A DNA stretch of 64,000 nucleotides, from NCBI GenBank assembly GCA_030248295.1, contig JASANH010001333.1:434001-498000 (forward strand). The letters are read 5' to 3'. The translations under genes and the position numbers were made by a program. The notes under the pieces are model-generated. The model saw only the letters and a program-made list of their open reading frames with translations. It ran no database searches and was not told the origin of the DNA. Position 1 is the stretch's first letter; every line of letters begins with the position of its first letter. Source of the stretch: Mesodorylaimus sp. YZB2_4. Lineage: Eukaryota; Nematoda; Enoplea; Dorylaimida; Dorylaimidae. Shown one piece after another: positions 23,298-51,439 of the stretch.

Positions 23298-24335
23298 GTC
23301 AGGAATTGCCAACATGATACCCGCATTTTCTACACTTTGCTTTTGCTATTGCTGCATCAACTAGGCGCAAAGTGTCATTACACACATCACACTTCTCTGA
23401 ATACTCAGCCTATGGATGCGTTCTCAAGACACCATCTTTGTGCCAAGTCGATCAAATCTCATCACGAGATGAAATTGCTCACGGTGACGAGAGGAGGGGG
23501 ATATAAGCAATCATGTAATAGGGTAGTTGGAATACGAAAATGTACGCTCCAAGGGACTGATAGCATGCTCACAATTATGATCCTTGATCTCGGGAGGTCT
23601 CATAGGCATGTCTGCTTCAATTTTCTTGCAGGCGGAAATCAAGAGTCTTCCTCAAGGATTTCCTTCGATGGGTGCAATCACATGGACCGAACCTGGCATC
23701 CTAACAAAGTGACAGTACAGTTGGCTGGTTTCTGATACCCCGCCAACACATGCCATAAAATTTCTTGCTTAACGAGCCTTAGAAATTGGAAAACGCACTT
23801 GGAGGTCATCAAAGCCTATGCTGTGGCGTATGAATACTAAAGAATCTTATTAGAATTCCGACATACAAAGGGCACCGACGGATGCTGGCCTATCGATCTT
23901 GGAACAGCCTTTTGTTTTTTTTTTTTAACCAGGAGTTTTGTCAAAGGACTGCAAAGTAAACATATTCTTTCGTCCCCACTTTCAACAAAGCCAGTCGCAG
24001 AAACATTGAAGTGAGTTCTGTAGTTAGCAAAATTCAGCCATGTTGCTGGCCAGCGTGGTTGATCTTCGAGGATTAGCCGCCCAATCTTCTCCCAAACCTC
24101 TTCACGCCTACAAGGAACGATAAGATAAGGTGTAAACTTGGCGAGCAATATCAAGCTAAGTGGGAGGGAGAGGAGTATTTTGGTCGTGTGTTTTTTTCAG
24201 TATTAAGTAAGGACAGACCTGAAACTAATTCTGTTGCAAATTTTTTTATTAGAAAGACGTGATTTTTCAAATGATTTCCATTCATTCGAAAAAATTATGC
24301 TGACAGCAGTGGATTGATTTTGTGAAGGTAATCTG
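23298..24335. other. intergenic upstream of the first Srx-like receptor
   Basis: I see no gene or structured element that I can support. There is a T-run at 23,914-23,928. Confidence 0.4.
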
Positions 24336-26411
24336 ATGAATAACTCCACTGTGGAAATGGAACTGGTCCAAGAAGTGGCCATTGGTCTTTTATACGCACT
24401 TGTTTCGATCATCGCGCTATTCCTGCATATTCTCGCCCTCCTAGCAGTTTTTCGGACACAAGGCGCCAGTAAATTATCCTTTAACATAATTCTGGTCAAC
24501 ATGTCTTTGGCCGAAGGCACTTTATTTTTACTCTACCTCTTTTATGCAGCACCTAGCGCTTTCTATGGACGATCTCTTATCGGTCCTTACATGGACGATA
24601 TGGCTGGACATTTGCAAGAATGGGCATATTTTCCGACAACTTACACCACCTTGATTATTGCCTTAAATAGAGCCATCTGCATCGGAGAAATTAGGATACC
24701 AGTTAGAGATGATCTAAAATTCAGGTGGTTGTATTTTATACTCGCTTGTACCTGGATCATTTCCATAACAGCCACCACGGCCAACATGTATTTGAACATG
24801 TGCTGGACTAGATTTGATCCTAAAAGCTATATTTTCCACCACATGTGCATCGATTCAACTCGAGCACCCATGTCCCCAACAATCATAGTTGACTTTGTCA
24901 TCATATATGGCGTGGCCCTGATATATTTGTATTGCATTTGGAAGATTTGGCGGAGAGGAAAACTGGTGCAAACAGTGCATCTTCACAACAGTATCATCAG
25001 CAATCAACGAAGACTTTTGTATATTGCATTGTGTATTTGGATACCGACTGCCTTGAATGCCATAGGTATGTTGATTATAGTATATCCGCCACCCTGAGGG
25101 TATAGACAGGGGGCAGATACTTTCACAGTCAGAGATAGTGATCCGACGCTTTCTGTACAGTACATAGGTGCATGCACAAATGAAAGCGAAGCAAGTAGGC
25201 ATGTTCAATCAATTGCTCCGCTAACTCATATACAGCGCACGATATTAAATCCCCGACAATTTCGGTCAAACATTTTAGTGCAATCGGATACGAAGGTTTG
25301 GTGTATCCATGGATGGTCATAGCGTAAAAACGGATCGATCGATCGATCAAACTGGAGATAGGCATGAAATAACTTTTAAATGCGGACAATTTGAACTGTC
25401 ATCACGTTTGGGCAAAAACATCATTTTTTAATTTGCCGCCAATAAGGTTCCCATCATTCCGTCTGCTAGAATGCGGCTAGCTGACTACGTAGCGCACCTG
25501 TGTATAGTTGGCCTTCGAGCCCTGGCGGCAAATTCAAAATCATGATGTTTTCACCTAAACGTGAAGACGGTTCAAATTGTCCACATTTGACTGATTTAAT
25601 GCCTCTTGGCATTGTCCATGTCTTATCATTCCTTTCTGGGCTTTCATGGAGAATGCCAGCCGGCCACGGTGACTGATTCATACCGTTAGGGAGCGCCAGC
25701 GTCGGTGCGAGCCAGTAGTAATTTATCACATATAGTATAGCCATGGTCGGTGCGGTGCGCACACTGCGATTATGCGCTCTATATCATTATGAAGTAAGAG
25801 ACCTGACCGAAATTGGCGGGAATTTAAAATGTCAAAAGAGAGTCGTCAATTTGGAGGACAGCTACAACTTGGCGCTTAATATTTCGAGATACCGTATTTC
25901 CTCGAAATCCCCCTCTGGTTATTCTCCCCCCATCTAGACCCTGATCGAACTTTATTCTCCACCCCCTGGAAATCCTCCCCCGGGGACAAATTTGAATTGC
26001 CGCACAGCATCATCAGCTGCGCCGCCTAGGAGCTGGCGGAGCGATGTATTTATTGCTCGTAGGTGCAGTCCTACATTGAAGCCAGATGCATTTGTAGAGG
26101 TTATGACGTGGGGTGCTCAGGTGCTTGTACTATAGAATCCGTGCTTACTTTCAGCATTCGAGGTCATACCGATCTTCCTATCCGGCTACGTAGCAGCCTT
26201 TCTGACAGCGATAATGGTATTAATCAGATTTATGATCACGCCAATAACTCTTCTCATATTCTCGAATGAAACGCGACAAAATGCGTGGGTATTGCTCGGA
26301 CGTCGCAAAGATCATGTACAAGGTATGGGGGCCCACTTCCCTGCAAATGGTCGAATTAGAGGCAATCCTAATAAAACCACTGATCAAAATGAACGGCAGT
26401 GTGCAGTGTAA
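24336..26411 (+). CDS. 7TM chemoreceptor, Srx-like, two exons
   Basis: Exon 1 24,336-25,065 (ATG 24336), intron 25,066-26,154, exon 2 26,155-26,411 (TAA). The junction is phase 1 and gives about 328 residues. Exon 1 covers an N-glycosylated start (MNNST), TM1-TM5 with SFNIILVNMSLAEG in TM2, ALNRAICI after TM3 in place of DRY, and a disulfide-capable Cys in ECL2. Exon 2 holds TM6 (FEVIPIFLSGYVAAF) and a TM7 with PITLLIFSNETRQN. The paralogue at 47,659-49,996 has the same intron at the same place and phase, which supports the model. An earlier end by splicing at GTATGG (about 26,324) is possible. Probably a sensory-neuron receptor; the ligand is unknown. Confidence 0.8.
25381..25586. repeat. 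foldback element in the Srx-like receptor intron
   Basis: Arms of about 60 bp (25,381-25,440 and 25,523-25,586) are reverse complements with scattered mismatches; both contain ACAATTTGAAC/GTTCAAATTGT and GGCGGCAAATT. The loop is about 80 bp. It resembles the small hairpin MITEs common in nematode introns. Confidence 0.65.
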
Positions 26412-30508: not shown

Positions 30509-32816
30509 ATGGAGGACGATGCAAGACAATCCTCGAACGAACAGAAAGCGGAACCAAACATCGAACCAAGTCCTGAGGATAAAATTCAGGAAATCGAGAT
30601 AAAACCTATTCAAGACGAAGAAATGAAGGAAAATGTCAACGTGTCGTCGACTAGTATCGAAATGAATGCTCAAGAGAACGAATCGTTGAAAGAGATCAAT
30701 GAAGAAATTGAGATCATCAAAGCTCCGATTGAAAAGGTGGATCCGAGCAAGGTGACAACGAGCATGATAATGCAGTCGGTCAGAAATTTAATCAATGTCA
30801 TCGACGAAAGACGTGCGTTTGCCGAAAATGGGCTCAACAAATCGACAGTTAGCGGATCTGGTCTTCGAAATGCATTAATCAATCATTTTCGGGGCCAGAA
30901 TATCTTGGCCAAAAATATCGATCCTTACGTGACATGTTTTCTCTCGCTCGGAGTTAATAACAGAGATTCGTTGGACAAGTTGATGGATAAGCATTGGCAG
31001 AATAATGGTAGGCAATTTCATATAATTCTAGATTTGTGCCGCCCTATTTCTAAAAGATGACCTCCTGTTCATCCAGAAATTCAAGAGCTAAAAGATCAAT
31101 TACGTTCAGCCGAAAACGAATGGGACAGTTTGCTGAAAAAGATTGACGCCACGATTCGAACGCAGGATGAAAATCCTCCAGAAAAGACGCACGACGATCG
31201 ACGTAAGCATTGTGTGGTTCCGTGCTCGATAACTGCTTTTTAGGGATTAGGTTGCCAAAAAAATTTCATTTGAGTGCCTTTTCGGTGCAAGACAAGACTT
31301 CATCGCAACGTCATTGACCCATCAGCCTTTATCAAAGATTCACAAACATTGGCAAATGTTTCACAAGTCGAGATGACTTTTTCTGTTTCTCAATAGAAAA
31401 ACCTCCTCATCTCAGGTTTTCTTTCCATGAAACGAACCTAATAGATCATTTCGTCAAACTCGAAGAACAGAAAATTTGAATTTCCCGCTTCAGGCCGCTT
31501 TTGCAATTTCTCATAGATGAGAAGTTCCTTTTCAAGGGCTGTTCGCGTCCTGCTGAAAGCTTTTTTAAACAGAATAACAACAACTACTGGCCACGAGAAT
31601 ACCGATATCAGGAAAACTGCCAAACAACTAGCGGACATGCTTTTAAGTGGTAGACTGTAAAGTTGTCATAAGCGGCTAAAAGCGGGAAATTTAGATTTTC
31701 CAATGTACTATTACTGTGAAGGTCAATATAAAATCTAAAGTGTAATTTGTCGTTTTTTATCTTTCGCTCCTTTTCTGCAAGGCTTCTTATCCTTGCGCCG
31801 CACATTTCTTATCTACGTCAGAGGAGTAGGTGCTCAGTTTTCTTCGACCCAACCACGTCCTGCTTCTTTCTTATCGCAGAAATCTTTAGAGCTCGCTCTG
31901 TGCGCTCTGAAAGGATTTGCAGGAGACAGATGACCCGGCATCTTCTCGAAGCCTTTTTCTGTCCGCTGTTATCGATGTGCTGCTGATTTCGGTCTTTGAA
32001 CCTTGTTTGTCTGGCAATAATTTTCTGAGACAAGGTTAGCGCTCGGCGTTTGGCTATGACCAGGTCACATTTTAAATATTAACTTATATGGGCGTATTAA
32101 GTAGTTTCTAGCAGGTGCTTGCTTCTCAAAGATTTCATTTTCAGCTAACAAGTTTATTTGTAAGCTCTCCAGGATGACAAACTTTTTTTGCAGGGAAAAT
32201 TCGTTTAGTCGACTGCGACAGTGGGAAAAACGTGACTGTCGGTTCGTTATTGAATCAGCGATGCGGCAAATACACTTTGTTTGTCGTGGCCCGTTTTTAT
32301 GGATGATACACCAGCGAACGCTATGTGAAAACTTTAGAAGAGCACTCGGAAGATTTTCAACGTAAATTATGTAATGTAGTTATTGTTTGTAAAGGCACGA
32401 AGGAAGGAGGACGCAAATGGCGCCAGGTGATCGGAGTCCACTTGCCCGTACTAGCTGACGAAATGGGCGAGTTCCTCAGCTCGTTCAATTTCCCAATCTC
32501 GGTTTGGAACATGAGTCGAACATCGGAACGATGTCTTTTGGCAGCCGCCAGTATCGCCAGAACGTTGCATTTGATCGAGGATAAAGAGAAGGACTTGTAT
32601 CAACTGGGTGGTGAGGTGTTGTTGTGCAATCGAGGTAGGCAATTTTTTGTACACAAATGTCAAACGACGGAGGATAGACCACCGTGGAACGAACTATTAG
32701 AAATGATCGATGATGGAAAGTGCAAGGAACCGCGGCCACAATCCAGAAGTGTTACTTGGGAAAAGGGAAGGCTGGCGGGTGAATCAAAAAAGTCAAAGTT
32801 TTGTGTTATTCTGTAG
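30509..32816 (+). CDS. PRXL2C/AAED1 (SelU-family) redox protein with in-frame TGA: candidate selenoprotein
   Basis: Exons 30,509-31,007, 31,077-31,202 and 32,194-32,816 join in phase to 416 codons with one internal TGA at 32,304-32,306 (about residue 246). Residues 1-208 are an acidic start, a helical block (VTTSMIMQSVRNLINVIDER) and a short coiled coil; I do not recognise them. From about 209 a thioredoxin-fold, AhpC/TSA-like domain follows: RKIRLVDCDSGKNVTVGSLL, TLFVVARFYG, then TGA, then YTSERYVKTLEEHS, LCNVVIVCKGT and LGGEVLLCNRGRQFFVH. In PRXL2C/AAED1 proteins this place reads FxCYxCxxYV, so TGA replaces the first, catalytic Cys and Ser the second. The frame stays open for 170 codons beyond it and matches the family. 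A SECIS-like hairpin lies about 40 bases past the TAG. Selenocysteine insertion is the best reading; a nonsense mutation is the alternative. Confidence 0.85.
31438..31638 (-). CDS. small single-TM open frame inside an intron of the redox gene
   Basis: 66 codons from ATG 31638, antisense to intron 2. A strong TM segment (LAVFLISVFSWPVVVVILF) is followed by a basic helix (KKAFSRTRTALEKELL) and a tail ending GNSNFLFFEF. A diverged, stop-containing relative exists on the minus strand at about 52,235-52,440 with the same order of motifs down to AGNSN. Either a micro-exon family or a repeat that happens to be open. I do not recognise it. Confidence 0.3.
   Translation of the reverse strand: MSASCLAVFLISVFSWPVVVVILFKKAFSRTRTALEKELLIYEKLQKRPEAGNSNFLFFEFDEMIY
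32304..32306 (+). other. candidate selenocysteine codon (UGA)
   Basis: This in-frame TGA is the only internal stop of the 416-codon frame. It falls at the position of the first cysteine of the family's CYxC motif, flanked by conserved sequence on both sides (FVVARFYG before, YTSERYV after). Together with the downstream SECIS candidate this supports recoding as Sec. Confidence 0.78.
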
Positions 32817-32855
32817 ACTGCCTGCACTTATTTCGTCGGAATACATATTTTGAGA

Positions 32856-32938
32856 CATGCCTTTTCCTGTGACGACATCGCCACAAACCCTCGAGACCCG
32901 AGCTGGACGGCGAAGTTTGATGTAAAGTGCAATGTCGA
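32856..32938 (+). promoter_or_regulatory. candidate type II SECIS element in the 3' UTR
   Basis: Lower helix: GACAT (32,856-32,860) with ATGTC (32,934-32,938), and TTT with AAA further in. An asymmetric internal loop follows, then the non-Watson-Crick core GTGA (32,871-32,874) opposite TGAT (32,920-32,923). Helix II includes CGCC (32,881-32,884) paired with GGCG (32,911-32,914). The apical bulge carries AAA at 32,887-32,889, 12 bases after GTGA, the spacing expected of SECIS. An extra mini-stem CTCG/CGAG (32,892-32,904) makes it form II. It would recruit SBP2 to recode UGA. The fold was done by eye. Confidence 0.75.
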
Positions 32939-32939
32939 A

Positions 32940-32945
32940 TAAACG
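32940..32945 (+). terminator. polyadenylation signal of the redox gene
   Basis: AATAAA directly after the SECIS hairpin, about 125 bases after the TAG. This places the whole hairpin inside the mature 3' UTR, as recoding requires. Confidence 0.7.
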
Positions 32946-34780: not shown

Positions 34781-34947
34781 CAAGTTTTCTTACTTGAGTG
34801 TAGGCCAGCGATTGAGGCGTAGCGTTTTGGGGAGCGCCACCTTAGCACGGGCACAGGCGGGACTTGGCACGGGAGTATGCTCTTCGGGATCTGAGTGACC
34901 TGCCTTTGCGGTACCTGGTGAATTTCTGTCTGCATAAAGACATTTCG

Positions 34948-37900
34948 ATGGACAATCTGTTGGATCAGTCACGCGTGGGACGCGATGAGCTTATCTGTCG
35001 TATTCGCGCGTATTTTCGCATTCAGTTGAAGCAGCTCAACCCAAACTCTCCCGTCGACGATGCATTTTTGGACGGGTGTAGATTTCCTATTCTGTATACG
35101 GATCCCCCCTCGCAGGCTACATCTCCCGCGGGTGTAGGCGTCCCTACTTCGCAGCAGTCAGCGCGCGACTTGAACGGTGGCCGTAGTACACAACCTAATC
35201 GCGGTGATCGAGGGTCCGCTCAGTTCGATTTGTCTACTCTGGAAGGTGATCCTGTGCCAGATGCGCGGTTTCATATTCCTCAGAATCGTAATCCGTTGCG
35301 TGATACACCGCCGATCACTCGTCGTGACGCAGAGCAGCTTCGTCCCTCAATCGAAGAAAACATTCGTCATCTGAATGAGTTGCATCTCGCTCACTGCAGG
35401 CAGCAGGAACTGGAAGGAAAGATTCGGGAGTTGGAGGCTCGCTTAGCACAACGGCAGGATGCTGATTCGTGCAGTAGTCGTTTGTCGAATAACAGGGAAC
35501 ACGCCCATCCAATTCCATTCCCAGACAGTCGTCCCGCTCTCCAGCCTGAAGTAGTGCATTCACGCCCGGAGGGCGCGGCATTATCATCTCGGTCCGTCGC
35601 AGCACCTGTGGCGCCAAGACCGTTTCGTCCAATCAAGCCAGAGGTCCCTCCATTCGAGAATTTACCGACACAGGACTTCCGCGCGTGGTTGGTGGCCTAT
35701 GAGAATGGCGCGATCATGATGGATTGGTCCGACGACGATCGTGTCCGCGGTTTGTATCTGTACTTGCGGGGTCAACCATTGATCGATTTCTCGGAGTGGC
35801 CACATAGTGAGCGGTCAACTTGGCACGTGGTTCGCACTCGCTTGCGTCGGTTGTATATTCGGGAAGACACAGAGCAGACACGGGTGGACGCTTTTCGTAA
35901 TAGGAAGCAAGGTGTAACAGAATCGGTTCAGGAATTCGCGTCCCAGCTTCAAACACTCGCGTCAAAGGCGTACCCTGATGTTCCATCCCCTGCACGGGAT
36001 AAGATGATTCGTGATACGATGCGCGTGAACCTACGAGCGGAGATAGCAGATAAGGTAGCTCAGGATCGAATGGGCGATAATTATACGTTGGACGAATTGA
36101 TCAAGTCTGCTCGAAATTGGGAATCATATTTGAAGAACGCTCCCTCTGCATCGAAGCCGATCTGGCCACCTTCATATAATCCACCCGCTCAAGTTGGGGC
36201 ATTTGTAGGTAAAGGGCATTCTTCTCAGTCACCTCGACACACTGACATGGTCAAACGCTGCTTTATCTGCAATGGCGATCATTTGCAGCGGGATTGTCCG
36301 CGTCGAGTCGCTCTAGCTGGGGGATGCAAGTATTGCAAGCAGCCTAATCACACGATTGATCAATGTCCATCTCGACAACCTTGCCCAGTCTGCAATGTGT
36401 TTGGCCATGGCAGGAAGACATGTCCTCGCGCGTCAGGCAATCGTCAGAACACAGGAAATCTACAGCAGTCATCGTATGGTGCTTCATCACACCAGCCTAC
36501 CCATCCGCAGCAGCCATCCTATCATCCGCAATATCCACAGCCGATGTATCAGCAACCGCCGTATGCCCACCCTACCGCGCCGCCCATGCCAGGTCAAAGT
36601 GGTCATCAGCAACCGTCCTCGTGTGCGATAGGGCCTAACGCTGGGTCAGCGATGCCTTCGCACTTGAGCATGTGCTCAGGGGTGTTGACTCCTCCGCATA
36701 CTTCACGAGTCTCACCTTCGTTGGTTCAGACAGTCATATCGCTCACCTACAATGTAACATACGCGGAGTCACCAGGATCATTGGCTCGTTTGGTTTCTGG
36801 TCCAGAATTGTCGATCTTAGTGAATGGCGTTGAGGTTGTAGCCTTGGTTGATTCTGGAGCTGAGATATCTTTGATCCATATTGATTCATTGCGCCAGGGA
36901 AACACACCGATCACATTGTACAAGGGTATTTGGAGTTGTAAGGCAGCTAGTGGAGACGACGTGCCTTTGTTGGGAATCGCCTTGGTCGGAGTCACAGTGA
37001 GAGGCATCACAGTGGAATGGCCCATGCATGTTATGTGTGGCACGTATCGGGGTTGCATTCTTGGATCAGATTTTCTTCACGTGTTTGGAGCCGATATATC
37101 GTATTACGCCAAGTCGATTCGTCTGATGCGTGATCCGTTTTGCGGTACTATGGTTTCGTTTTTTCAACGAGAGCTTTGTCGGGCTACGGCCAATGTTCGT
37201 CTGATCCGTGGTCCATCTGAGTCCTTGGTCGTTCCACCCCGAAGTCAGAAATTGTTCTGGGCACAGGCGGAGAGTCCGAATAAGGATTTGATGGTTTTCA
37301 TACCCTCATCCGATTTTCAAAAGCAGTTTCATGTAGCTGCCCCCGCGAGTTTGGTCAAATTGAATGAGGCTCAGCGTTTTCCAGTGTGCTTGGTCAATTT
37401 TGGAGAGAATGAGTTAGCACTCTCCGATCACATACCGTGTGGCACGCTTGAACAGTTTCAGTATATCGAAGGAGAACCCTCGGTGAGGGATGAGGGCGTT
37501 AGTTTGGCGCCGAAGTCATTGGCTGCCCATATTCGGTCACGTTTGGGGCATGAGGCTCAGTGTGCAGTGGCTGGGTCGCAGTTGAGCGTAGGTCTGACTG
37601 GAATCGACTCGTTACAAATCAGCGACTCGATCGACGACACCACTGCGCGTCACTACAAGGAGCTCTTGGATCGCTATAAGGAACCACTGAAATCTATTCC
37701 TCCGCCAGCTAAGCAAGATCCGGCGCGCGTGGAGAGATTGCGTTCAAAGTTTAACATTTCTACAGCGTGTCTAACACAAGAAGAACAAGCAGCCTTCGTG
37801 GACTTGATGTGTCAAAACGCAGACATCTTTGCTGAGTCGGATAAGGATTTGGGGTGTATGCCAGGCGTCCATCATTACATTGACACAGGAGATGCTGCAC

Positions 37901-40900
37901 CAGTCAAACGACAGCCATACCGGGTTCCGCAGGCCAAACAAGAGGAACTACGTCGTCAAGTTGAAGAAGGCCTCAAGAATGGTGTCTTGACTCACTCTTG
38001 CAGTCCGTGGGCGTCCCCGACTCTTCTAGTCAAGAAAGCTGATGGCTCCTGGCGTTTCTGCGTGGATTATCGCTGGTTGAACGCCGTCACCAAGAAGGAC
38101 GTTTTCCCGCTACCTCACATTGAGACTCTTTTGAACAAGTTGCAAGGCAGCGTCATTTTCAGTGTTTGTGACATGCAGTCAGGTTATTGGCAGATACCAT
38201 TGGATCCAAAGTCACGCGAGAAGACCGCGTTCATCTGCGAAGATGGCTTGTACGAGTGGACACGAATGCCATTTGGCTTATCTAATGCACCAGCAACATT
38301 TGCCCGGGCTGTTGACTTTCTCTTGGCGGGGTTGAGTTGGCGTCAAATATTGGCTTATTTGGACGACCTCATCATATTCTCTCAGTCGGTAGCACAACAT
38401 TTTGAAGATCTGCAAGTAGTCTTTAACCGTCTTCGTGGTGCCAACCTGAAACTCAAACCAAGCAAGTGCAGTTTTGCGCAGGCTGAAGTACCATTTTTGG
38501 GTCACATCGTTTCAAAGCTTGGGATTCGCCCTGACCCAGAGACCACGGCACCATTGCGTGATATGGCAGTACCGAAGTCACCTGGCGACGTTTCGTCTTT
38601 CTTGGGTTTAGTCAATCATTATCGTCGGTTTATCAAAGGGTTTTCTGTGGTCGCCGCTCCGCTGTATCAACTGACCAAGAAGGGTGTGCCTTTCGTGTGG
38701 ACTGAGGACTGTGCCTCGGCATTTGTGGCCTTGCGTGATATTCTACTTTCTGAGCCAATCCTTCGCTTTCCGAATTTCGAGCTTCCATTTGCATTGAGCA
38801 CTGATGCGTCCGGAGCTGGGTTAGGTGCCATTTTAGAACAGTACCAACCTGGAGAACCAAACACCCGGTGGGTGATCGCGTACGCCTCACGAACATTGAC
38901 TCCGGCGGAGAGGAACTACAGCACTACCGACAGAGAAGCATTGGCTGTGTTCTTTGGTATCAAGAAATTTCGAACTTATCTGTATGGGCGCCCTTTCTTG
39001 GTTTTCACTGATCATCGAGCATTGACGGCGTGGCATACGACCAAGGAGATTGAGGATAGCCCTCGCTGGGGCAGATTTATTGAGCAGTTGCAAGGCTATG
39101 ATTTCCAAGTCCTTTATCGTCCTGGTACAGCTCAGGGTCACGCGGACGCATTGTCTCGCCTTCCTACTGTGGAGCCTTCTTCGAGCATGGTTCGCATGAT
39201 CTCGGGTACCACCCACGCAACGCTGGCACCTATAGATTCGGGTATATCTGTCGGAGAGGACGGGGAAGAGTGCGTGGCGGAGGACGAATTGGCATTCTTG
39301 GATGATACAGTGCTGCGAAGAGAGCAAGAAGAAGATCCATTTTTGAAGCGTATTATCGATTTTGTGGAGGCTGGTACCTGCGTTGAGGGGGAGAGAGAGG
39401 AACTGGCGAAGTTGGCAGAGTCATACTTTCTGCAGGGAGATAAGGGCTCAGTTCTTCGGTTTTGCTTTCCGCGCCGTCGCAAATCTCGTGGTATCACAAG
39501 CTCAGTTCTTGCCTTACCGTCCAGTCTGAAGCAGGAAGTCTTGGCAGCATTTCACAACGATCCTCTGGCGGGTCACATGGGAGAAGAACGCACCTTGACT
39601 CGTCTTATGGACCGTGTCTATTGGCCATCGATGCGTAAGGATGTGCACAACTACTGCCGTACTTGTTTGATTTGTGCTCGTCGTAAGTCACCGCATAAGT
39701 GGGGGAAAGCACCTTTGGTTTCGATCCCAGTGGGCAATCCATTCGAACGTATCAGTTTGGATATCGTTGGACCAATGACAACTACACGCGCTGGCAATCA
39801 GTACATCTTAGTGCTTATCGATGCATTCACAAAGTGGCCGGAAGCAGTCGCAATGCCTGATTGCAGGACTGAAACCATCGCACAGATTTTCGTGGAGCAT
39901 ATTATTTGTCGCTTTGGATGCCCGCGTACAGTATTGTCTGATTTGGGGTCTCAATTCACATCCGATCTGTTTCGTGGTATTTGTCGCTTTCTGGACATCC
40001 GCAAGTTATCCACTACAGCATATCACCCACAGTGCGATGGACAAGTCGAACGGTATAACAAGGTTTTGATCGACAGCATTGCAGTCTACGCAAGTGCTCA
40101 TCAGGAAGACTGGGACTTATTCATTCCGTTTGCCTTATTTGCCTTTCGCTCGAGTGTGCACTCATCCACGGGTTACTCACCAGCCTCACTGGTCTATGGC
40201 CGAGAGTTGCCGTTTCCATTCGATCGCGCCTTTGGTTCAGATGACTCGCAGCAATATTTAGCCCACGACTATGTAGTGCAGTTGAAAAAACGTTTAGCCG
40301 ATGCTTACACCGAAGTACGCAAATCGATTTCCGCAGCTCAGGAACAGCAGGCTAAGCAGTATAACAGGGCAGCCCATGAAATTCCTTTTAAAGTCGGCTC
40401 ATTAGTCATGATTAGGAGGAATGCAGCACCACGACGTTTGTCTGCCAAACTATGTGATCGTTTTTCGGGTCCATATCGTATTGTCGCAATGCCATCGCAA
40501 GTGACCGCATGCATTCGTCCGTTGCTTTGGGCTGGCGCTGACAAGCTCATTCACGTGAATCACTTGCAACTATATCGGGGGTCAGTGTCAGGACGTCCGG
40601 AGGACGATCCAGAATCTGAGAACGATCAGTGGGTGGACATCGAGGAATCGAAGAGTCACGACCCGAATATCACGCCCGGTGGGCAGACTTCGCAATTAGT
40701 ACCTGGCTCTTTGGTGTGGGCTAAACTCAAATATATTCCTTGGTGGCCTGCTCGTGTACTGCCAGAGTCGGAAGCCAAAGGTCCAAAACCGCGTACAAAG
40801 GGTCCTTGGATATTAGTTTATTTTTTCAATGATCGTGATCGCCAGGCTTTTGTGCACCTGAAAGACATCGAGCCATATTTCGAGACAAAGGCGATGCATG

Positions 40901-40995
40901 CTTCTCAGAAAAAGGCGATTCGCACAGCCATGGCTCAGTTGGAGGAGTTCGCCGCAGCGCAAGCACGTCGAGCGGACATTGATGCAAGCGACTGA
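34948..40995 (+). CDS. Gag-Pol polyprotein of the Gypsy element, with C-terminal PWWP domain
   Basis: One 2,015-residue frame from the first in-frame ATG; it is open upstream to 34,846, so a non-ATG or spliced start is possible. Gag has a coiled coil (about 160-190), a Retrotrans_gag core and three CCHC zinc knuckles from residue 438 (CFICNGDHLQRDC, CKYCKQPNHTIDQC, CPVCNVFGHGRKTC). There is no frameshift between gag and pol. The protease has VDSGAE (Asp 635). The RT has RFCVDYRWLN and YLDD (1137-1140). The RNase H has STDASGAGLG (Asp 1286). The integrase has an HHCC finger, then Asp 1605, Asp 1665 and Glu 1701 (D59D35E), then a GPY/F-like module (RFSGPYRI). After it comes PGSLVWAKLKYIPWWPARVL (PWWP at 1931-1934) and about 70 more residues. 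All catalytic residues seen are intact. Confidence 0.95.
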   Translation: MDNLLDQSRVGRDELICRIRAYFRIQLKQLNPNSPVDDAFLDGCRFPILYTDPPSQATSPAGVGVPTSQQSARDLNGGRSTQPNRGDRGSAQFDLSTLEGDPVPDARFHIPQNRNPLRDTPPITRRDAEQLRPSIEENIRHLNELHLAHCRQQELEGKIRELEARLAQRQDADSCSSRLSNNREHAHPIPFPDSRPALQPEVVHSRPEGAALSSRSVAAPVAPRPFRPIKPEVPPFENLPTQDFRAWLVAYENGAIMMDWSDDDRVRGLYLYLRGQPLIDFSEWPHSERSTWHVVRTRLRRLYIREDTEQTRVDAFRNRKQGVTESVQEFASQLQTLASKAYPDVPSPARDKMIRDTMRVNLRAEIADKVAQDRMGDNYTLDELIKSARNWESYLKNAPSASKPIWPPSYNPPAQVGAFVGKGHSSQSPRHTDMVKRCFICNGDHLQRDCPRRVALAGGCKYCKQPNHTIDQCPSRQPCPVCNVFGHGRKTCPRASGNRQNTGNLQQSSYGASSHQPTHPQQPSYHPQYPQPMYQQPPYAHPTAPPMPGQSGHQQPSSCAIGPNAGSAMPSHLSMCSGVLTPPHTSRVSPSLVQTVISLTYNVTYAESPGSLARLVSGPELSILVNGVEVVALVDSGAEISLIHIDSLRQGNTPITLYKGIWSCKAASGDDVPLLGIALVGVTVRGITVEWPMHVMCGTYRGCILGSDFLHVFGADISYYAKSIRLMRDPFCGTMVSFFQRELCRATANVRLIRGPSESLVVPPRSQKLFWAQAESPNKDLMVFIPSSDFQKQFHVAAPASLVKLNEAQRFPVCLVNFGENELALSDHIPCGTLEQFQYIEGEPSVRDEGVSLAPKSLAAHIRSRLGHEAQCAVAGSQLSVGLTGIDSLQISDSIDDTTARHYKELLDRYKEPLKSIPPPAKQDPARVERLRSKFNISTACLTQEEQAAFVDLMCQNADIFAESDKDLGCMPGVHHYIDTGDAAPVKRQPYRVPQAKQEELRRQVEEGLKNGVLTHSCSPWASPTLLVKKADGSWRFCVDYRWLNAVTKKDVFPLPHIETLLNKLQGSVIFSVCDMQSGYWQIPLDPKSREKTAFICEDGLYEWTRMPFGLSNAPATFARAVDFLLAGLSWRQILAYLDDLIIFSQSVAQHFEDLQVVFNRLRGANLKLKPSKCSFAQAEVPFLGHIVSKLGIRPDPETTAPLRDMAVPKSPGDVSSFLGLVNHYRRFIKGFSVVAAPLYQLTKKGVPFVWTEDCASAFVALRDILLSEPILRFPNFELPFALSTDASGAGLGAILEQYQPGEPNTRWVIAYASRTLTPAERNYSTTDREALAVFFGIKKFRTYLYGRPFLVFTDHRALTAWHTTKEIEDSPRWGRFIEQLQGYDFQVLYRPGTAQGHADALSRLPTVEPSSSMVRMISGTTHATLAPIDSGISVGEDGEECVAEDELAFLDDTVLRREQEEDPFLKRIIDFVEAGTCVEGEREELAKLAESYFLQGDKGSVLRFCFPRRRKSRGITSSVLALPSSLKQEVLAAFHNDPLAGHMGEERTLTRLMDRVYWPSMRKDVHNYCRTCLICARRKSPHKWGKAPLVSIPVGNPFERISLDIVGPMTTTRAGNQYILVLIDAFTKWPEAVAMPDCRTETIAQIFVEHIICRFGCPRTVLSDLGSQFTSDLFRGICRFLDIRKLSTTAYHPQCDGQVERYNKVLIDSIAVYASAHQEDWDLFIPFALFAFRSSVHSSTGYSPASLVYGRELPFPFDRAFGSDDSQQYLAHDYVVQLKKRLADAYTEVRKSISAAQEQQAKQYNRAAHEIPFKVGSLVMIRRNAAPRRLSAKLCDRFSGPYRIVAMPSQVTACIRPLLWAGADKLIHVNHLQLYRGSVSGRPEDDPESENDQWVDIEESKSHDPNITPGGQTSQLVPGSLVWAKLKYIPWWPARVLPESEAKGPKPRTKGPWILVYFFNDRDRQAFVHLKDIEPYFETKAMHASQKKAIRTAMAQLEEFAAAQARRADIDASD
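40699..40950 (+). other. PWWP domain fused to the integrase C-terminus
   Basis: The segment begins PGSLVWAKLKYIPWWPARVL, with the invariant GxLVWAK...PWWPA core. It continues with WILVYFFNDRDRQAFVHLKDIEPY, the beta-strand and aromatic pattern (F-F/G-D.....W/F....L.P) of PWWP domains, followed by a helical end (QKKAIRTAMAQLEEF). PWWP domains are Royal-superfamily readers, often of H3K36 methylation plus DNA. In chromoviruses a chromodomain occupies this same position; a PWWP here would be an analogous targeting module. Confidence 0.88.
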
Positions 40996-47658: not shown

Positions 47659-49996
47659 TTAACGGCAGCGTATCATTTTCAAAGCATTTCTTCGAGTTTC
47701 CCCCGAAAATACAAGAATTGAGACTGGCGTCACGAAAAATCGTAGAAGTACTGCTAGGCCAGTCATGAGTGCAGCCCAAAATCCATGTAATGCGATTGGG
47801 ATGACAAGAAATGCTGAAAAAGAATTGTACTTGCTGAAGTATGTATATTATCATGTAGATGGCAACCGTCAGTGATTTTAAAACAAAAACTATAGAACGG
47901 GTTTATTTTAAATTTCACGCAATTATGGAATATTTTCATAGCCATAGTCGGCTATTTTTGGTCGTTTTAAAAAAATTTGAGGAATCAAAACAGGAGATAA
48001 CAGGGTTCGTGGCCTGCCCAGCTAGGCGTCTGTCTCTTTTTCCAGATGCGCGGCTACAGGCTAGTGTCCGACTCGTGGTTCTGTGAAATCTTGCGTATAA
48101 TGCCCCTTTACTCTACTCTAGAGCGCGCATAAGTATGGTATCGTGAGTTAGGTGATGTGGTAAAACATGAACATGAAGGCATTTGGTAGTCTATATGCAT
48201 CTCTGCTATATGCATCACTTTACACCAATTCTAAGTCACCAAGTTTATCAGCAGATCGGCTTGTTTGTTTTCAAATTACAAGTCTATTTATAGTGCCCTT
48301 CTTTTAGTTTTTGTAAACTCAAGCCCGTTTTGCGCCACCAGCTTCGGCCCTTAAAAAATGCGTAGTCAGATTCTTGCAGTTGCAAAAAGGAACAAGTAAG
48401 AGGAATATTTTGGATTCACACTGCAGGAGTAGTTTTGCGAGACCGACTACCACCAAAACCTGGTGAGACTTCAATCTTGCAGCTTCAGACAGCTCGAGTT
48501 TCAAGTGAAGTCTCTCCTCTAATTTCTGCAAAAGATTCGCGTAAAAAATCAGCTGGTGTTCTATTGTGGCTGTTAAGGTGGATCTGTGTAGAGGGATATA
48601 GCATTGCACTTGCGGTCAGATTTTTGTCTGATTCGGCCAGGCTAAGATAAAAATAGTGCCCCTTTCATTGAGGGATAAATGCGTGGCATTTCGAAGAGAT
48701 CAACCTGACTGCATGCAAGCAGTGATCCCATCCATTTTGCATGGAGTCGCATCAATTGGGCTAGTTTGGCCCCTTGAATTAGGCAACATCCCTCGAGCGA
48801 CGGACATAAAAGCGCGTGGATAGAAGCTGCTCATCGAAAAATGGGTAAGGGTCCTTCCTTTCCGCTCAACATCCCATAAACAAGCGTCCAACTGTGCGTT
48901 TTGGCGCTTCCTGTCTGGCTAATTGCTCAACCTTTTTTGAAAAGCATAATAAGTATAATGCTCATATACTCGTTGTCACATTGACTTGGGCAGTCCCATA
49001 AACATTTTCCTTTAACGCGTATGTGTGCCTGCACATGTGTGCTCCGCCGCGGGTTGCGGTGATGCGCGGCGCATCATTTTGGGGCGAGGCACACACACAA
49101 TTTCCAATAATTTTGTATAAGAACTTTTATCTCCTTATCATGATTCCCCGTTCATTTCTGCGCATTTTAATTATCCGAGCACAACTGGCGCATACTCCTG
49201 TGCTGAGGTCAGCTGGGGGAGGGGGGGGGAGGTCATCGTAGTGGGTTACACCCTTACCAATAGGATTAGCTGCGGTCGGAATCCAAATGCAAGCAGATTG
49301 ATAGAAAAGCCTTCTCTGATGAGCAATTATTCTGCCTTGCATCTCAGTCGTGGCAACTTGATTCCTCTGCTGCCATATTTTCCCGATGCAATAAGCGTAC
49401 AATATACCAACTCCATAAATTATCGCCTCATCCATTAGAATCGTCGGCGAAACAGGAGCACGTCCTGCAGTTGCACAGACTTGTCGAAAAATACAAGTGC
49501 TCCTATCAAAAGTAGTCCAGCATTCGTACACGTACATATTTAAAGTGGTCACAGTGATTGAGAGAATCCAAGTAGCCGCCAGAATTAGACGAAGGTAGAC
49601 CATTTTTCTTTTATTTTTTACAGGCACCTTGATATTTGCCAATGCTAGAGCACGATCAAACGCGAGTAGCAGTGTAGTGTAGGTCGTAGGGAAGTAAGCC
49701 CATTCTTGAATATGGCCAATTATGTCATTCATATGTTGTCCAAAAATGGGTAGCTTCGTGCTCACAAATGCGCATGGACTGGCAAAAAATAAGTATAATG
49801 CGAATAAAGTGCATTCAGCGACGGCCATATTTGCAATCAGAATATGAAATGTTGACTTTTTGGCGCCTTCGCATCGAAAAGCGGCAATTAAAGCGAATAT
49901 ATGCAAACATATTGCAATAAAGGAGGCGACTGAGAAAAATGTCCCGATCGTAATCCTTTCTTCAAATGAGAAAATGGAGGTGGTTTCATTCAACAT
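47659..49996 (-). CDS. 7TM chemoreceptor, Srx-like, two exons (paralogue of 24,336)
   Basis: Exon 1 49,996-49,258, intron 49,257-47,814 (GTAAGG...TTTTTCAG), exon 2 47,813-47,659 ending TAA. Phase 1 junction; 297 residues. Exon 1: glycosylated start (MLNETTS), TM1-TM5 with STFHILIANMAVAECTLF, the shared block HIQEWAYFPTTYTTLLLAFD and a DRALAL motif. Exon 2: FLVIPIALHGFWAALM (TM6) and FFVTPVSILVFSGETRRNA (TM7). Similar in every segment to the gene at 24,336-26,411, with the intron in the same codon context (IG|A). The intron (1.44 kb) contains SINE copy 4. A sensory receptor role is inferred from the family. Confidence 0.82.
48006..48177 (+). mobile_element. tRNA-derived SINE, copy 4 (old copy)
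   Basis: Diverged version of the SINE inside the intron of the minus-strand receptor, in antisense orientation. It has head GTGGCCTGCCCAGCTAGGCG, box B GTGTCCGACTCGTGG, body, and a tail of two ATGAAC-like units. Many substitutions against the 16,479 copy indicate an older insertion. Confidence 0.8.
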
Positions 49997-51439
49997 TTTC
50001 TTGGCAGGGAAAAAGTTGTGTCAAGATAGAGATTTCATGAGTCTTAGCTACAATGCACGAGTACCCTTTCGAAGTATAAATAATCTGAGATGTGGGAGGT
50101 TAGGCATATCTGCAACGCCTAATAATTCCGCGGCACTGGTTCCTTCTTGAAGGTTAATAAAACCCGTAGCGATTTGGCTACCTCAGTCTGCCACATGAGG
50201 CGAAAAATTGAGCAGGCTTTGAGCAATTTCTTTTGAGAAACAATCAACAAGGAGAATCAGCTGTCGGTAATCTCCTGGCGCGTCTATGAATGACACTGCT
50301 AGCAGGTGGAATGACACCTTTCCAACGCAGGCCAGGCTAACGTATAGCTGAATTTGCCCATTCGGCTCTTATTTTTCGTAAAAATACAAGTAGTTCGACT
50401 TGAAAAACCTAATTAGGCTGACAGATATCACATCTAATTAGCTATGAGACAAATAATGTGATTAGCCGGAGATATCATCGTCAGCTTGCTTGTTTACTTG
50501 AAATAGAGTCGTTATTCCAAGGATCGATTAGCAGTCTATTCGTAATCGAGCCTGATGAATTCTGCGTGGGCTGACAAAAGAAAAAAGAGAAGAAGAAGAG
50601 GAGCGAGCTCAATTAACTGGCCCACGACTACAGTGGACCAGTACACATGGAACCCGAGGATGCTCATCGAATCACTTATTATATCCAACGAGCTTAAAAT
50701 CTCGCAGTATATCGCCTAGTCAACCTCAAGTTTCCCCAAGAAGGCGATATCGTAACTACACAGGAAGAATTTTGCTCACCGCTGGCAGTCCAATCACGAA
50801 TTGCTAAAGCAGGTGAAAATGACAGGCATATCGGCTATCTCGGAGGATTAGAACTTTGATCTTCTGATCTGAGTGCAAATTTTTTGATCTTATTTCTGAT
50901 CACTTAAATGATTTGGTGACGTTATTTATCTTACATCATTCGGATCTCAATATTTTGCCCACGAAAAAATTCATCAGTTGGTACCCTAGGTTTACTAAAA
51001 CAAGACTGTTTTGGTAGGACATTTTAGGCACATGATTTTGTGTCGACAGAATGCGCAGGACATTTTTTTGAGGGTATTTTATCATAGGTACTGTTGCAAC
51101 ATATGGTGCGAAGCCAAAATTTTGCCAACATCATGTGTTTTTAAAATACCGTCAAAGTCAATGCCCGTGTCAAAAATCTTGCGTGAGGTACGAAAATTTT
51201 GACATTTTGTACTGTCCAAATCCGCGAGTCCCAAACCAACACTTAAGTTAGAAAAACAGGTCATTTAAGGAGCCAGACATAACAAGAAGTCATTGTTCAG
51301 CCGAACTCAAACTTTTCGAACCTTTCATACATAGAGACAATTTGCAAGGATGGAAAATCAAACAACCATTGCTGGTTGTGGTCTTCCTCGCTAGTCAGGA
51401 TATCCATCAAGCTTACCAGGTTACGATGTGGTTTTAGCC
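49997..51439. other. intergenic 5' flank of the minus-strand receptor
   Basis: No gene is seen. The promoter of the receptor at 49,996 should lie in the first few hundred bases, but no specific site is recognisable. Confidence 0.4.

Follow-up and report, generated by a model that had tools for sequence, protein, structure and literature searches.

The window analysed here is a stretch of 64,000 nucleotides from the dorylaimid nematode Mesodorylaimus sp. YZB2_4 (contig JASANH010001333.1, positions 434,001 to 498,000 of the forward strand). It contains a three-exon gene for a peroxiredoxin-like protein with a CAAX-type tail, whose frame is interrupted by one in-frame TGA and which is followed by a candidate selenocysteine insertion sequence (SECIS), making it a candidate selenoprotein gene. 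Three paralogues in the same genome (L003, L004 and L005) and 11 homologues from elsewhere (P0001-P0011) were compared with it. The features of the locus, in window coordinates, are as follows.

30509-31007, forward strand: exon 1, encoding the N-terminal region, with start codon at 30509, a GT donor and an in-frame join; a related region occurs in L005 and P0009
31077-31202, forward strand: exon 2, encoding the end of the N-terminal helical region, between GT-AG introns that keep the frame
32194-32816, forward strand: exon 3, encoding the peroxiredoxin-like domain and the CAAX-type tail, with stop codon TAG at 32814-32816 (PF13911, 6.4e-7; PF00578, 3e-6; predicted peroxiredoxin (Prx) fold)
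32304-32306, forward strand: TGA, predicted to encode selenocysteine (Sec, U) as residue 246 in the motif UYTS; TGA stands at this column in all four paralogues of the genome
32802-32813, forward strand: C-terminal CAAX-type box CVIL; all 14 aligned homologues have Cys at position -4
32860-32929, forward strand: candidate SECIS element (SECIS_1 at 18.5 bits, pattern scan and alignment fold)
32869-32873, 32885-32887 and 32918-32921, forward strand: SECIS parts GTGAC, apical AAA and TGAT
32938-32943, forward strand: polyadenylation signal AATAAA, from sequence

Introns of 69 and 991 bases connect the exons into a frame of 415 residues whose sole internal stop is the TGA. From 32196 the frame is otherwise open up to the TAG at 32814, with 169 codons beyond the TGA, which bears out the three-exon frame with a single internal TGA given in a preliminary description of the window, along with its long open stretch past the TGA, there counted as 170 codons. 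The exon join is supported by P0009, which has a similar N-terminal stretch ahead of the same domain, and the ENEWDSLLKKI motif of exon 2 has counterparts in L003, L005, P0009 and P0010. Behind the stop, the hairpin and AATAAA of that description were also recovered; the core lies 53 rather than about 55 bases past the stop, and its GTGA occupies 32869-32872 rather than 32871.

The Rfam SECIS_1 model aligned over its full length (1-64) to the candidate element with 18.5 bits (E = 0.5), the sole match at E ≤ 10 out of 4227 Rfam families for a 321-base stretch. A G before the SECIS quartet, as in the window, is unusual, yet passages in PMC2375036 report it from several nematode and zebrafish selenoprotein genes. 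A pattern scan for the core, the apical AA and helix pairs, run over 188,000 bases (94 kb, both strands), found at least seven of nine helix pairs at four places only, one behind the stop codon of each paralogue, while in a background of first-order Markov sequence (20 Mb) seven pairs occurred at 39 places, eight at four and nine at none.

Searching the 1067 contigs (145 Mb) of the genome at the protein level revealed three paralogues besides the window gene, on contigs C36, C135 and C82 and with 61, 47 and 40% identity; at the DNA level the window locus is single-copy. All four copies have TGA at the identical codon, in the contexts FYG-U-YTSERYV (window gene), FFG-U-RISERYV (L003), FFE-U-SSUEDFV (L004) and FYG-U-GAUEKFV (L005). 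Three codons on, the window gene has AGC and L003 AGT, giving UYTS and URIS, and L004 and L005 each have a second TGA, giving the UxxU motifs USSU and UGAU. Among these copies the pairwise proportions of differing synonymous sites (pS, 0.69-0.94, near saturation) and nonsynonymous sites (pN, 0.28-0.49) are alike upstream and downstream of the TGA, and coding constraint therefore goes on past it; for a TGA kept in four copies of such age with constraint behind it, the ordinary stop meaning is not expected. The SECIS_1 model matched 8 bases past the stop codon of L005 with 39.1 bits, above the gathering score, and behind L004 with 27.6 bits; L003 has a pattern element with eight of nine helix pairs that starts 313 bases past its stop. 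L004 ends in CSIL-TGA, with this stop (minus strand, 2122-2124 of the reverse complement) 23 bases ahead of the SECIS core, and its predicted mRNA has UGA in frame twice and a third UGA as the stop right after the CAAX-type box. A UGA so near a SECIS is not known to be recoded, which would explain both meanings of UGA in one mRNA.

Three protein searches yielded the 11 homologues. P0001-P0008 come from archive or metagenome contigs, and all eight start 7-25 columns downstream of the UGA site, P0001 at the very column of the window's first start-like codon downstream of the TGA; these are protein sequences only, with starts where a gene caller would put them were there a stop at the site. P0001 goes with the window gene (85%), and by eye in the alignment P0002 is nearer to L003, P0003 and P0004 to L005, and P0005-P0007 to L004, a split among separate paralogues which suggests that the four copies predate the separation of those species. 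In P0009 both sites are occupied by Cys (CPVC), making it a CxxC form. In the Plectus sambesii protein P0010 (A0A914UUM0), YTLFVLLR is followed directly by GGTKWRQL and the stretch around the UGA site is missing; the gap is probably a predicted intron placed over the UGA of a misannotated selenoprotein. P0011, of 117 residues, was left out of the homologue alignment. No sequence relatives were confirmed in genome contigs (597 pattern stretches) or viral contigs (113), and none of the six proteins listed by the third protein search bears the name SelL or PRXL2C.

The Sec machinery named in the preliminary description, namely tRNA-Sec, eEFSec, an SBP2-like domain and SPS2, was located in the genome, as was SepSecS. 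The tRNA-Sec scored 76.4 bits, above the cut-off (anticodon arm GCTTCAAACC), the eEFSec domain 111.3 bits, also above the cut-off, and SepSecS gave seven exon matches on one contig, above the cut-off. Two exons (26.5 and 22.3 bits) make up an L7Ae domain that reads SBP2-like and presumably belongs to SBP2. SPS is represented by four exons on one contig (L018, 2089-2154, and L020, near 1318), where the upstream frame, LSDLRG-U-GCKVP, shows UGA at the catalytic position and the gene's SECIS scores 36.8 bits, above the gathering score; on the strength of this motif we take the exons to be SPS2. In 14 control genomes, matches were obtained for the tRNA-Sec family in 14 (5 above the cut-off), TIGR00476 in 14 (2 above), eEFSec in 1 (0 above), SepSecS in 3 (3 above), L7Ae in 7 (7 above), Rdx in 2 (2 above), SECIS_1 in 4 (0 above) and cuticle collagen in 0.

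Further in-frame TGA codons occur in two other families. Two TrxR-like genes, recognized by eye (L009 and L010, near 1430-1566), end in ...NC-U-S and ...KC-U-S, with SECIS_1 matches of 29.8 and 27.4 bits directly behind. Three SelW-like genes (L048, L049 and L050; Rdx, PF10262, above the cut-off) have an in-frame TGA in the motif S-x-G-U-GY, that is, Sec with Ser replacing the usual Cys; behind them a looser scan found SECIS-like elements in which 8, 9 and 9 of nine pairs are present, and Rfam SECIS_1 had no match for these three elements. A further, apparently partial SelW-like copy (L051) resembles L050. When seven SECIS elements (four from the family of the window gene, two from TrxR and one from SPS2) were folded to a consensus, 9 of 11 pairs had a pair-keeping double change in one or more sequences.

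From these comparisons we conclude, with a probability of about 0.94, that the window gene is a nematode selenoprotein gene whose UGA at 32304-32306 is decoded as Sec; the proposal of a UGA-decoded selenoprotein with Sec at a thioredoxin-fold active-site position is thus supported by the TGA in all four paralogues, the SECIS and the machinery. The tRNA-Sec and eEFSec whose genes were found would decode the UGA, recruited by the SBP2-like protein on the SECIS in the 3' untranslated region. The protein is predicted to be a peroxiredoxin-like oxidoreductase of thioredoxin fold. Sec would take the attacking position in it and Ser the usual place of the resolving residue (UxxS); a helical N-terminal region lies in front, and the CVIL tail is probably prenylated. 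The protein would be attached to a membrane and act as a peroxidase or reductase with one selenol, dependent on an outside thiol; we infer both membrane attachment and enzyme activity from motif and fold.

Several observations weigh against this reading. The Infernal search confirmed the SECIS-like hairpin as a full-length alignment, but its 18.5 bits lie below the Rfam gathering score of 35; the element is unlisted in three of the four cmscan runs that covered it (one at the gathering score, two with longer input) and is not among the five places listed by the genome-wide SECIS_1 search, and L003 has no SECIS_1 match. The scan pattern was fixed post hoc, after the known elements had been seen, and was tuned on them. 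Under a cruder earlier score the window element reached 25.0, and 1 of 212 background windows got 26; L003 scored 19.0, which lies above the 95th but below the 99th percentile (22) of this background; the remaining three members of the family scored 23.0-25.0, above the 99th percentile and below the top background window (26). For single pairs of the consensus fold, up to three of the seven sequences have a break or a gap, and by eye the MAFFT alignment of the SECIS elements puts one TrxR base in the wrong place. Finally, the SPS exons fall below the TIGR00476 cut-off of 125 bits (best 58), as is expected for pieces.

The profile PF13911 (AhpC-TSA_2, the PRXL2/SelU group; curated cut-off 27) is passed by all four genes with 30.2, 44.1, 29.4 and 36.7 bits, and by sequence the family can be placed in the PRXL2/SelU/SelL group. 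This upholds the group membership, but not the exact subfamily, implied by the initial label of a PRXL2C/SelU3-type protein: PRXL2C is possible for the four genes, SelL about as likely, and a separate nematode branch possible too. The motif of the window gene resembles the PRXL2C/AAED1 site. In the model of the window protein, which has a predicted Prx fold, Sec sits between strand 26-32 and helix 38-49. A PDB sequence search with the single protein gave no match at E ≤ 10, and one with a profile gave weak ResA matches (E = 0.33 and worse). For the N-terminal exon Pfam gave nothing above the cut-off; a TRM5-TYW2 match (E = 0.32) was rejected as chance. In the P0009 model the N-terminal region is helical, at modest confidence (mean predicted local distance difference test score 68.2). 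The C terminus reads C-x-(I/L/V)-(L/M/V) in 14 of 14 rows of alignment A2, with a mixed residue after the Cys (V, A, S, T, N or C), and the tails thus have the marks of a CAAX box: Cys at -4, an aliphatic residue at -2 and conservation. The extra N-terminal helical region and the CAAX-type C terminus appear to be unusual traits of the family. MIEN1 (Rdx12) belongs to a different family (Rdx/SelW) and has Cys, not Sec. It is alike in combining a thioredoxin-like fold with prenylation (PMC3527542, PMC6738349), which in the window family is predicted from the tail.

An alternative that concerns the name only, and is compatible with the selenoprotein reading, is that the family represents nematode SelL rather than PRXL2C/SelU, descended from a UxxU ancestor whose second Sec became Ser in two copies; we put this slightly short of an even chance. 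Passages in PMC3316567 describe SelL as containing a pair of Sec two residues apart and a single SECIS, and UxxU, the hallmark motif of SelL, is present in two of the four paralogues (L004 and L005), each with a SECIS_1 match behind its stop; SelL, which occurs in animals and marine bacteria, is also alike in its thioredoxin/peroxiredoxin-like domain. The NCBIfam model NF040769 ('SelL-related') aligned near full length to all four genes, but its scores of 66.7, 71.4, 60.3 and 88.4 bits lie below its cut-off of 120, and the genome's own Cys-type PRXL2B gene (L014), run as a control, matched better than any of them (91.8 bits); the model therefore does not settle SelL versus PRXL2C and was dropped as a SelL discriminator. 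The CxxC form of P0009 leaves the ancestral motif state undecided. The window gene differs from SelL in its UxxS motif, and the extra N-terminal helical region and CAAX-type tail of the family may be further differences. SelL is said to be confined to aquatic organisms in passages of PMC2397514. With respect to PRXL2/SelU, the genome's separate PRXL2B gene gave 140.6 bits against PGFS, the human PRXL2B, while the family shows 16% identity to PGFS in the alignment; the A2 alignment profile gave distant matches to PRXL2B (18.2 bits) and part of PGFS (10.4 bits).

Alternatives that deny the Sec reading fare far worse. Readthrough of the UGA with some other amino acid and no selenium has a precedent, since the UGA of SPS1 in selenoproteinless Hymenoptera is kept and read through (passages in PMC4561486), but we consider it highly improbable here because the genome has SECIS elements and Sec machinery and P0009 has Cys where the UGA stands. 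Even less probable is a decaying pseudogene or sequencing error in which TGA is a nonsense change of TGC or TGT: the locus is single-copy by DNA and its SECIS_1 score is the weakest of the three family members having one, but TGA holds one column in four of four paralogues despite near-saturated silent sites and with constraint beyond, two copies have UGA at the second site too, SECIS-like elements follow all four stops, and eight of eight truncated homologues start past the site. An altered code with UGA as sense throughout the genome, which ten genes with in-frame TGA might suggest, is extremely improbable, since L004 terminates at UGA straight after its CAAX-type box and in the ten genes TGA stands only at Sec-like sites with SECIS-like elements behind.

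The selenoprotein predicted in the window would be one of ten candidate selenoprotein genes: the four described here, two TrxR, SPS2 and three SelW-like. Some of them could be allelic copies, and the count covers these families only, so that the genome may hold more. The preliminary description, which took the window gene as a second selenoprotein of its nematode, thus understated the number. With distinctly less confidence than for the window gene itself, we think it probable that this nematode has a rich selenoproteome of ten candidates with Sec in SPS2, including a four-gene, CAAX-tailed, membrane-anchored peroxiredoxin-like family split into UxxU enzymes of diselenide type and UxxS enzymes with a single selenol, in one of whose members (L004) UGA means Sec twice and stop once.

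Such a set differs from what is described for other nematodes. Passages in PMC6155587, PMC2375036 and PMC4561486 present C. elegans as keeping the entire Sec pathway for one protein, TRXR-1, and C. elegans and C. briggsae as having one selenoprotein each (PMC2375036). The genome studied here is alike in having tRNA-Sec, eEFSec, SepSecS, an SBP2-like protein and a Sec-containing TrxR, but has ten UGA genes, and its TrxR tails are CUS, not GCUG. Its SPS2, with UGA, departs from the Cys form that nematodes are reported to have; among animals, SPS-Cys is reported from them alone (Mariotti 2015, PMC4561486). Passages of PMC3473315 and PMC2375036 cite nematodes as an example of massive loss of selenoproteins; the former (Jiang 2012) lists Sec-containing forms of SelU and SelL from marine invertebrates and describes the loss in insects and nematodes as massive. 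SelU numbering varies by author, C9orf21-like proteins being SelU2 in the relevant passage of Jiang 2012 (PMC3473315). Among the literature matches listed, none dealt with Sec-containing SelU or SelL in nematodes, most subscription papers lying outside the coverage.

If true, a nematode with ten candidates, Sec in SPS2 and a UxxU family would mean that much of the selenoprotein loss occurred within the phylum, and it would provide a worm for the study of diselenide enzymes. The UGA codons of L004, twice Sec and once stop, would be a natural test of the UGA-SECIS distance needed for recoding. Gene catalogues overlook such genes, P0010 of Plectus sambesii skipping exactly the UGA site.

The nematode origin of the DNA, already given in the preliminary description, is supported by 133 matches of the cuticle-collagen N-domain in the genome versus none in the control genomes. 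Collagen matches share contigs with two paralogues (C82 and C135), tRNA-Sec (C75), SBP2 (C8), eEFSec (C3), TrxR (C1) and a single SelW-like gene (C44). This sharing argues against contamination; no collagen match is listed on C50 (the contig of the window), C36, C283, C64, C7 or C65. The canonical spliced leader SL1 with donor had no exact match in the genome, a result that neither points to a clade nor rules one out. The window contains the following further features.

13636, reverse strand: C-type lectin
17705, in the window: OATP
24318-25094, forward strand: Srx-type chemoreceptor, above the Pfam cut-off
49130-50020, reverse strand: Srx-type chemoreceptor, above the Pfam cut-off
52587, reverse strand: ASC channel

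An open frame of 2049 codons at 34846-40992 on the forward strand of the window is perhaps a retrotransposon.

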